From positions 1 through 35,437 of IMG/VR virus record IMGVR_UViG_3300046003_001479: a DNA stretch of 35,437 bases; one strand, written 5' to 3'. How positions within the stretch are numbered: position 1 is the stretch's first letter; each line of letters begins with the position of its first letter. The notes beneath the pieces were generated by a model, which saw only the letters and a list, made by a program, of their open reading frames with translations, was not told where the DNA came from and ran no database searches. The DNA comes from a virus. Positions 33,761 to 35,437 of this stretch are shown piece after piece. A program made the position numbers and the translations under genes.

Positions 33761-33957
33761 GCCTACGTTATGAGCAGCACGCATCTTTGCTAATCACCCG
33801 TGAGTTTCTATTGGACTTACTGAATACAAGCACCCGACCAAAGACCGTGAAGGAATTGAAGGAACGGGCGCGAAGGTGTTTAAGGCACTATCCACCGTTG
33901 GATGTTGATGGTTTGCCTATCTTTTCAAAAGATACTTTCGGGCGCGATGCGAAATAA
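33757..33957 (+). CDS. Small basic protein, unknown function
   Basis: The 66-residue product (MSLRYEQHASLLITREFLLDLL...) has two helix-prone stretches and a basic PKTVKELKERARRCLRHYPPLD middle. It is the last gene of the late operon before a 570-bp non-coding region. No family recognised; a regulator is possible. Confidence 0.6.
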   Translation: MSLRYEQHASLLITREFLLDLLNTSTRPKTVKELKERARRCLRHYPPLDVDGLPIFSKDTFGRDAK

Positions 33958-33983: not shown

Positions 33984-34049
33984 ACCTTAACGGGTATATC
34001 ATTCTCGAATATAGCGTATTTCATGCGTTTTTTGACCTTATCGGGTATA
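33984..34049 (+). repeat. Pair of ACCTTAwCGGGTATA direct repeats
   Basis: ACCTTAACGGGTATA (33984-33998) and ACCTTATCGGGTATA (34035-34049) differ at one base and are spaced 51 bp apart. Paired direct repeats in an intergenic region can be regulator sites or iterons. Confidence 0.65.
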
Positions 34050-34053
34050 AATA

Positions 34054-34104
34054 GTAAGGGTATAGGCTTACTTTTTTAGCTACAAAGTAAGTTCATAGGC
34101 TTAC
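34054..34104. promoter_or_regulatory. Tandem GTAAG-N8-CTTAC palindromic operators
   Basis: Two 18-bp sites, GTAAGGGTATAGGCTTAC (34054-34071) and GTAAGTTCATAGGCTTAC (34087-34104), share 10 bases of their right halves and both pair GTAAG with CTTAC. They are spaced 33 bp, about three helical turns, which suits side-by-side binding of one protein. The second ends 6 bp before the -7 box at 34111, and would control it. Confidence 0.75.
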
Positions 34105-34110
34105 GTTTAC

Positions 34111-34118
34111 TATTTTTG
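34111..34118 (+). promoter_or_regulatory. Candidate promoter -7 box for the structured RNA region
   Basis: TATTTTTG fits TAnnTTTG. No TTTG lies at the usual distance upstream; instead the tandem operators take that place, as expected for an activator-dependent or repressor-covered promoter. Transcription would start near 34125. Confidence 0.5.
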
Positions 34119-34217
34119 CAGCAACAGTACCCGAACGCTTACCATTCAGAACAGCGTACCAGTCAGGGTCGTTTACCGTTGCATTGGACTGGGGTGTCCC
34201 CAATCGGCAACATTTAG

Positions 34218-34261
34218 CCCGTTGTAAGGTTTGTGGTTATCCTTGCAACGGGTTTCTTTTT
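34218..34261 (+). terminator. Terminator-like hairpin A (shared-loop hairpin)
   Basis: A 12-bp stem (one U-G pair) at 34218-34229/34241-34252 with loop TTTGTGGTTAT is followed by TTTCTTTTT. It has the form of an intrinsic terminator in the middle of the predicted RNA. Confidence 0.75.
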
Positions 34262-34323
34262 ATCTTTGTAATAATCAAACCCGACACGCCTCTGATTCAA
34301 GCGCACTTTGTCGGGTCATTTCA

Positions 34324-34371
34324 GCCAGTCGTAAGGTTTGTGGTTATCCTTGCGGCTGGCTTCCTTATTTG
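34324..34371 (+). terminator. Terminator-like hairpin B (shared-loop hairpin)
   Basis: A 13-bp stem with two U-G pairs at 34324-34336/34348-34360 has the same 11-nt loop as hairpin A. It is followed by TTCCTTATTT, a weaker T-tract. It may end the RNA before the next promoter. Confidence 0.65.
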
Positions 34372-34415
34372 TTCAAAGTGCACCAGTTAGGTAGTGTACT
34401 GCACCACCTCCGTTA

Positions 34416-34456: not shown

Positions 34457-34485
34457 TTGTAGTAACGAAATTACGTGTATATTTG
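34457..34485 (+). promoter_or_regulatory. Promoter of the recombination operon
   Basis: TTG (34457-34459) and TATATTTG (34478-34485) are 18 bp apart and the spacer begins TAGTAACGAA. It matches 25 of 29 positions of the promoter at 3457-3485. It would drive the 34526 and 34792 genes and, across the genome joint, erf and its neighbours. Confidence 0.8.
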
Positions 34486-34525: not shown

Positions 34526-34738
34526 ATGAACTTCAACTTACCAACACCCGAACAAACTGCAAAAAGACTTCAATACCTTAACAGCGTTACAATGGCTGCG
34601 AAGAAAAAATCAATCAATGCTGACATTGCTTGGTACGAAAGAACTGCAAAAGCAAACGAAGTAGTTGCGCCTTCTTGGTCTAAGCATTGCTTTGAAATGG
34701 TGGAATCGCTTAAAATAAAATTAGCTAACGTTTATTAA
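34526..34738 (+). CDS. Small protein of 70 residues, unknown function
   Basis: I start this at the ATG at 34526 (MNFNLPTPEQTAKRLQYLNS...), since the earlier in-frame ATG overlaps the -7 box of the promoter. The product is helix-prone and basic, with AKKKSINADIAWYERTAKAN and a C-terminal helix. It is the first gene of the recombination operon. No family recognised. Confidence 0.65.
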   Translation: MNFNLPTPEQTAKRLQYLNSVTMAAKKKSINADIAWYERTAKANEVVAPSWSKHCFEMVESLKIKLANVY

Positions 34739-34791: not shown

Positions 34792-35046
34792 ATGACCTAC
34801 TCACTCCAAAAACTCGAAAACGCTATTGAGGTAGCGAATTTCAAAAAAAATGACGATTGGCAAATAATCGTGTCAGGCTCTGACATTCTCCACGCCAAAT
34901 GTTCTGCTATCATTAAAGTTAGCAGCGTTCAACTTGGTACATTAGCGCGTGCAATGCAAGTCAATTGCGAAGAAAACGATGGCGTTTACTCGCTAACTTT
35001 TCAGCACAACAACAACACCGTAAAATTTCAAACCATAATATTATGA
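34792..35046 (+). CDS. Protein of unknown function, 84 residues
   Basis: The product (MTYSLQKLENAIEVANFKKN...) has a helical start and then regular strands ending DGVYSLTFQHNNNTVKFQTI. Its TGA overlaps the ATG of the second erf copy. Its 3' end is also the left edge of the window, which fixes the circular join. No family recognised. Confidence 0.65.
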   Translation: MTYSLQKLENAIEVANFKKNDDWQIIVSGSDILHAKCSAIIKVSSVQLGTLARAMQVNCEENDGVYSLTFQHNNNTVKFQTIIL

Positions 35047-35437
35047 GCATTTACAAAAAACTACTTACAATTCAGCAGCACGTTAATGGGCTAAAAAAGA
35101 ACGCCAAATCGTTTGGATATGAATTTGTGTCAGGTACTAAGGTACTAAGCGAGATAAAGCCGCTAATGAACGCGCAAGGGCTTCTATTAAAGCAAGAGGT
35201 ACTAAGCTGCCATAACCAAAGGATTGATTACACGGTTAAAAGCGGGTCAAAGTCCGAAATGTTTTCAAGTGTTGCTTTGCGGTTTACTTGGGTTGATTGC
35301 GAAACGGGCGAAAAGGACGAAAATCTATTTCATGCCAACGGTCAAAACGATTGGGAAAAGGGATTAGGTTCTGCGCTTACCTATGCCGAACGCTACTTTC
35401 TTTTAAAGTATTTTCACATTGCAACGGACGAAGATGA
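34982..35437. repeat. Right copy of imperfect terminal direct repeat
   Basis: Matches the first 456 bp at 436 positions without gaps, and ends because the window ends. The difference pattern, nearly all third-position changes, shows genuine strain variation rather than sequencing error. Confidence 0.95.
35043..35437 (+). CDS. erf: ERF annealing protein, 5' part (variant copy, cut by window end)
   Basis: About 131 codons of a second erf allele are present. Compared with the left copy the protein differs only at residue 21 (Ala for Ser) and residue 69 (Ser for Ala). It is most likely the same gene seen again where the circular genome overlaps itself. Confidence 0.9.
   Translation, partial: MSIYKKLLTIQQHVNGLKKNAKSFGYEFVSGTKVLSEIKPLMNAQGLLLKQEVLSCHNQRIDYTVKSGSKSEMFSSVALRFTWVDCETGEKDENLFHANGQNDWEKGLGSALTYAERYFLLKYFHIATDED

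Follow-up and report, generated by a model that had tools for sequence, protein, structure and literature searches.

What RNAs might a phage make from a stretch of DNA that carries two hairpins with the same loop and different, still complementary arms, and what could they be for? We addressed this question in the window, meaning the whole stretch of 35,437 nucleotides that was analysed (IMG/VR record IMGVR_UViG_3300046003_001479, positions 1 to 35,437). Its last 456 bp (34982-35437) repeat the first 456 (1-456) with 95.6% identity, over the ERF recombinase gene, so the record is a nearly complete genome whose ends mix strains; in record G003 a 45-bp end repeat is perfect. The closest terminases are those of Flavobacterium psychrophilum phages (49%), and a sequence-only reading made earlier was correct in assigning the phage a Bacteroidota host.

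Two hairpins and the predicted RNA units that end in them

That reading had reported a repeated 23-base core, which we found exact at 34224-34246 and 34331-34353 (GTAAGG-TTTGTGGTTAT-CCTTGC); a search of both strands revealed no further copy elsewhere in the record. As it had described, the outer arms differ between the copies and are complementary in both, and the stems proved longer than it gave, with 14 pairs each. Hairpin 1 (34216-34254, + strand) has the arms AGCCCGTTGTAAGG and CCTTGCAACGGGTT, and hairpin 2 (34323-34361, + strand) the arms AGCCAGTCGTAAGG and CCTTGCGGCTGGCT. They fold at -22.1 and -24.3 kcal/mol (z -5.9 and -6.6, respectively), and 0 of 200 shuffles folded as well; the whole 176-nt stretch gave a z of -6.6. 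G-U pairs make the + strand fold better than the - strand. Among related phages, the stem has several sequences (CCCGTTG.., CCCGTC.. and CCAGTCG..) and 12 or 14 pairs, with pairing kept in all of them, and the loop is nearly constant (TTTGTGGTTAT, with the variants -GTAAT, -GTGAT and -GTGAC). Compensatory changes are found both within and between genomes, which bears out the proposal that the structure is selected.

Both hairpins are the 3' parts of repeats spaced 107 nt. Each repeat reaches upstream of its hairpin into a second structured domain and then a promoter box, a part that had been missed before. The locus is a gap of ~570 nt between a gene end at 33957 and the start of the early operon at 34526, and it holds two homologous units, A (34111-34262, -7 box included) and B (34261-34372, likewise). 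Each consists of a TAnnTTTG box, ~10 nt, a bulged hairpin, a G(G)GTCNTTT trailer and a terminator-type hairpin. From this arrangement we predict that A and B are back-to-back small RNA genes of ~105-150 nt, each with its own Bacteroidota -7 box (TAnnTTTG).

The box of unit A (TATTTTTG, 34111-34118, + strand) keeps its spacing in all unit A relatives. The predicted RNA (34119-34262, + strand) contains an antitoxin-like hairpin at 34129-34169, with an outer stem (34129-34132/34166-34169), an inner stem (34135-34139/34153-34157) and the loop TACCATTCAGAAC; an extra hairpin at 34177-34211, seen on folding and, by sequence comparison, present in some relatives only, L024 among them; and hairpin 1 as its terminator-type 3' end, followed by TTCTTTTTATC. 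The box of unit B (TATCTTTG, 34261-34268, + strand) overlaps the U-tract of unit A, and the predicted RNA (34269-34372, + strand) carries its bulged hairpin at 34279-34316 and hairpin 2 as its terminator-type 3' end. The bulged hairpin of unit B is essentially the minimum-energy fold, and the minimum-energy fold of unit A competes with other pairings. The stems and U-rich tails suggest intrinsic termination of both units, with a weak U-tract in unit B. With their 11-nt loops, both hairpins escaped a consensus terminator scan, which accepts loops of no more than 8 nt.

Pattern scans of IMG/VR yielded 17 different sequences of unit A and 12 of unit B, and some phages have A without B (for example L004, L011, L017, L024 and L030). 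Three pairs of the unit B hairpin are altered on both sides (C-G/U-A, A-U/G-C and C-G/U-A), and 95.8% of cells are paired, a value reached in 0 of 500 shuffles. Unit A is more uniform: 98.7% of pair cells are paired across the 17 sequences, and one pair changes from U-A to A-U in 5 of them. In one relative (L008) unit A bears the stem usually found in unit B, which suggests exchange between units. Blastn searches for isolated-phage homologues of the unit gave chance matches only. For unit B they returned nothing in phages and only short chance matches in plasmids, so that a structural model was needed.

The surroundings of the units vary among relatives. Two palindromic 28-nt repeats (GTAAGNNNATAGGCTTAC, 34048-34108), detected by a repeat search, lie directly upstream of the unit A promoter as a possible operator. 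Their arms vary jointly in relatives (GTAAG/CTTAC to GTCAG/CTGAC), and in some relatives a different inverted repeat, GTTCATATTTTGTGAAC, stands at this position. To judge from these sequences, the palindromes are likely binding sites of exchangeable regulators. A further repeat, ACCTTAACGGGTATA or ACCTTATCGGGTATA, lies in the same intergenic gap at 33984-33998 and 34035-34049 and is found in many relatives. At the junction between the unit A hairpin and the terminator, the inserts differ between the window (34177-34211), L014, L019 and L036; in L030 (8030-8130, - strand) an extra bulged hairpin at this place, CCCGTAGGCTAAAAAGCACACTATCGGG, resembles a further abiF-type motif. Downstream of both units, a third -7 box (TATATTTG, 34478-34485, + strand) belongs to the next (early) transcription unit, which is variable among relatives. 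The first gene 3' of the RNA units (34526-34738, + strand) encodes 70 aa of no family, is not Abi_2 and is replaced by a different gene in several relatives.

The loop sequence recurs elsewhere. Its 17-19-mer core also matches the phage and bacterial contigs L009, L018, L020, L022, L023, L025-L029 and L032-L035, where the rest of the unit is absent, and we treated these loci as unrelated. Unrelated phages also have AAAACCAC within 3-30 nt downstream of the core GGTTYGTGGTNAYCC, an arrangement that permits an H-type pseudoknot (GTGGT with ACCAC) with an A-rich third loop. Such loci (L022 4037, L026 3445, L029 435, L032 2547, L063 5821, L065, L067, L068, L070 and L071) are often situated immediately 5' of a gene or amid tRNA genes. 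Of ~10 independent core loci in the first set, 4 had the pseudoknot partner, where the base rate is 1.15% per 45 nt. Their geometry is similar to that of preQ1-I riboswitches, but there is no RF00522 match there, and the pseudoknot-capable core is possibly a separate, undescribed RNA element. We also rejected a preQ1-I riboswitch as a reading of the terminator loop in the window, where 34216-34361 has no RF00522 match.

Likeness to AbiF antitoxin RNAs

AbiF has been reported as the ancestor of Cas13. The abiF RNA (RF03085) is the antitoxin of AbiF, a HEPN ribonuclease of the Abi_2 type, and in C. difficile the RNA RCd22 acts in trans by binding the toxin (PMC12373285). For PbAbiF, from Prevotellaceae, the complex with its RNA, AbiFr, has been solved (PDB 8VZ6; PMC12737573). 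At gathering scores, Rfam gave no match in the window or in 10 relatives, and abiF RNA surfaced in E-value mode only. In that mode unit B matched RF03085 over its full length (positions 1-37) at 34280-34316, with 31.2 bits and E 9.7e-4; in a genome search the match had E 1.6e-5, and there were matches in 9 of 18 family records. The score lies below the curated gathering score (31.2 versus 37 bits). As a calibration, two experimentally proven phiC2 abiF motifs scored 37.6 and 19.5 in the same RF03085 search. Unit B fits the bulged-hairpin anatomy of abiF RNA exactly, with a 7-bp outer stem, a 1-nt bulge, a 3-bp inner stem, an 11-nt loop starting CUCU and a 6-nt 3' bulge, and it shares the conserved loop letters. 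It also has a promoter box just 5' and a U-rich trailer 3', as Bacteroidota abiF leaders do. Unit A has no Rfam match; the two stems and the 3' bulge are present, but the loop is different. In both units the informative part is thus the 5' half, and the terminator-type hairpin is only one portion of the feature.

We then compared the units with host loci by means of covariance models built from phage sequences only, R1 from unit A and R2 from unit B. The host AbiF loci were fetched from plasmid records with PbAbiF as query and came from five Bacteroidota species, in genera other than the phage's own host; the AbiF proteins that were checked have the RNxxxH-type HEPN motif. R1 gave three matches below E 10 in 80 kb, all of them abiF leaders. 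The best was in Chryseobacterium shandongense (33.0 bits, E 1.6e-5), and the other two, in B. fragilis (18.8 bits), are both scored as abiF RNA by Rfam (40.1 bits). R1 also matched the Prevotella nigrescens abiF leader with 26.6 bits, ending immediately 5' of the start codon. When complete replicons were searched, the abiF leader was its sole match both in the Chryseobacterium plasmid (68.8 kb) and in the Prevotella replicon (568 kb). R2 matched the AbiF leaders of Phocaeicola (39.4 bits, 2.4e-8), Hymenobacter (31.0 bits, 6.1e-6), and B. fragilis and Acinetobacter (both ~24 bits, ~6e-4). Common descent or mimicry with Bacteroidota abiF leaders is thus detectable by phage-only models, and the earlier statement that no known family is recognised has to be revised: unit B is an abiF RNA whose match is significant although it scores below the threshold, and unit A has matches in the abiF leaders of hosts.

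A blastn search of 72,556 plasmids with unit A returned a single match, the Chryseobacterium abiF leader, and a -7 box precedes the Chryseobacterium abiF RNA at the same distance as in unit A. In the apical 18 nt, two relatives (L011 and L017) match Chryseobacterium at 17/18 positions and another (L004) matches Prevotella at 17/18, including a compensatory GCT..AGC / GCA..TGC stem change. Within the plasmid set, the Chryseobacterium toxin is most similar to the AbiF of P. nigrescens (41%), and the motif RNIVAHH is common to both; unit A therefore appears to follow one toxin subtype. An RF03085 scan of the Chryseobacterium locus listed no match. By sequence, the Chryseobacterium and P. nigrescens leaders (L055 1089-1138 and L059 1138-1187) define an AbiF-antitoxin RNA subtype, and unit A is a predicted orphan member of this subtype outside Rfam coverage.

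Two features of the host loci were seen besides. In the Chryseobacterium locus the GGGTC arm could instead pair with AGACCC just downstream, as a possible attenuator. In a Phocaeicola massiliensis plasmid (L051), abiF RNAs flank the abiF gene on both sides (1100-1136 and 2127-2186; 59.1 and 44.0 bits).

The phage units also differ from abiF RNAs. The 3' bulge of unit A is longer than in host RNAs, and both units have in addition a strong, separate hairpin of terminator type, constant in its loop, which has no counterpart in the host leaders examined, indicating that the phage RNAs are not simple copies. Furthermore, there is no toxin gene downstream of them. A search for Abi_2 (PF07751) found no copy in the window or in 22 further phage records that belong to the family or to its look-alikes, and an HMM of eight host AbiF proteins found none in 2,700 ORFs of phage loci, although it found the control loci at ~1e-120. 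The units thus have neither the toxin gene that stands beside the RNA in a type III toxin-antitoxin system nor the position directly upstream of an abiF/Abi_2 gene that is the context of RF03085. What units A and B do present is an RNA like a host antitoxin in a phage from which the toxin is missing.

Competing explanations

Because the RNAs resemble AbiF antitoxins and the phage is without an AbiF gene, they are probably decoys preventing host suicide. We consider it likely that units A and B are orphan RNA antitoxin mimics of two subtypes that would neutralise host AbiF ribonucleases. The sequence-only reading had suggested an antitermination RNA with two hairpins, such as HK022 put, or a protein-bound decoy; its guess of a decoy agrees with this explanation, and that of antitermination does not.

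Regulation of early genes is an unlikely explanation, in which the loop GTGGTT would pair with AACCAC near early start codons or the hairpins would attenuate the early operon. The loop is nearly invariant, the next gene has the loop complement ATAACCACAAA in its 5' leader in L004, L006, L011, L021, L030 and others, and of the 10 + strand copies of AACCAC in the window, 4 are no more than 15 nt away from a start codon. However, the next leader is without a site in L003, L036 and L038, and AACCACA is not over-represented in the window (8 found versus 6.6 expected). A separate promoter box stands between the hairpins and the gene, and regulation of this kind leaves the abiF-type 5' domains unexplained.

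It is very unlikely that the units are the relic of a phage-borne AbiF module, whose toxin gene was lost and whose RNA was left by chance with no present function. AbiF modules do exist on phages (phiC2), and the leaders of genuine abiF genes are similar to the phage RNAs. Against a relic, the promoter box, hairpin and terminator are retained, with compensatory changes, in at least 17 distinct phage versions, a second unit of the other subtype is present, and the toxin ORF has left no trace.

We give hardly any credence to an antitermination RNA acting on RNA polymerase. Like HK022 put, the locus has two stem-loops per transcript right after a promoter and ahead of early genes, but it has no sequence link to put, and Rfam matched it to none of the antitermination families. 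In each unit the second stem-loop itself resembles a terminator, and the hairpins lie in two separate units, both with a -7 box and a conserved 5' domain of their own; only one unit is present in many relatives. The likeness is instead to the leaders of toxin genes, upstream of which the host copies sit. Small ORFs without a known function flank the units, and could suggest a split toxin-antitoxin system of which the units are the active half, the toxin being some phage protein not related to Abi_2, but this is extremely improbable, as the gene after the units differs between relatives, no ORF is HEPN- or Abi-like and PADLOC reported nothing relevant.

Orphan abiF RNAs and a proposed counter-defence

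Antitoxin mimicry by units A and B would have parallels in other phages. Two unrelated phages (L037, 75 kb, and L040, 53.5 kb) carry abiF hairpins that R2 scores at 45-46 bits, and neither has Abi_2. In the cyanophage S-CREM1 (OP535465) an abiF sRNA is annotated (PMC9964418), and we found no Abi_2 in its 178-kb genome. This is again a phage abiF RNA without an Abi_2 gene, but it is a single copy within a tRNA cluster with an Rfam match above the cut-off, and the accessible text of PMC9964418 does not read it as an antitoxin mimic. Orphan abiF RNAs therefore occur in at least three phage lineages besides this one. The AbiF system of the C. difficile phage phiC2/phi027 (PMC12373285) also has two tandem abiF motifs in a phage; unlike here, both are on one RNA directly upstream of the abiF gene (Abi_2, 168 bits). 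As a further case we considered the Lactococcus phage sk1, in which a region protects against AbiF, to judge from the title of Rince 2000 as cited in PMC12737573. It has no RF03085 match, and we took no support from it.

The nearest functional precedent is phage PhiTE, which defeats a type III system by carrying an antitoxin RNA, pseudo-ToxI (PMC3475682). There too, a tandem-repeated phage RNA resembles a host type III antitoxin and the toxin is absent. The target differs (ToxN versus AbiF/HEPN), as does the fold (a pseudoknot versus the bulged hairpin here), and the repeats here are two subtypes, each with its own promoter box and terminator. The function of pseudo-ToxI has been demonstrated; that of the present units is predicted.

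On the host side, the mimics would face Bacteroidota AbiF toxins (Abi_2, HEPN ribonuclease) whose own leader encodes an RNA of this kind; in AbiF systems studied elsewhere, the leader RNA binds and silences the toxin. Each phage RNA would comprise an AbiF-antitoxin-like 5' hairpin (AbiFr/RCd22), followed by a G(G)GUCNUUU trailer and a hairpin of the intrinsic-terminator type. Units A and B are probably transcribed early in infection, for which we infer promoter use, abundance and timing. As host transcription drops and the host antitoxin is depleted, the phage RNAs would bind AbiF and keep it neutralised, so that abortive infection would be blocked. The two subtypes would cover two subtypes of AbiF, A that of Chryseobacterium and Prevotella nigrescens, and B that of Hymenobacter, Phocaeicola and B. 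fragilis. Strong terminators would yield short free RNAs, whereas the host leaders must permit some readthrough into the toxin gene.

More broadly, we lean towards the view that Bacteroidota phages carry an RNA-only anti-defence cassette, in which two tandem mimics of different AbiF subtypes are exchanged and recombined as modules and unit A represents a subtype not yet in Rfam. Orphan abiF RNAs, in at least four lineages, would then be a general phage counter-defence that pre-emptively silences the Cas13-ancestor AbiF. The literature that we searched described no phage counter-measure against AbiF, and few cases are known in which an RNA mimics the antitoxin of a toxin, among them the pseudo-ToxI of PhiTE. 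If this proposal is true, it would offer a directly testable inhibitor set together with a new antitoxin RNA subtype, and a route to further anti-defence RNAs, namely antitoxin RNAs without a toxin in phage genomes. It would also provide physiological evidence that AbiF serves as a phage defence in Bacteroidota.
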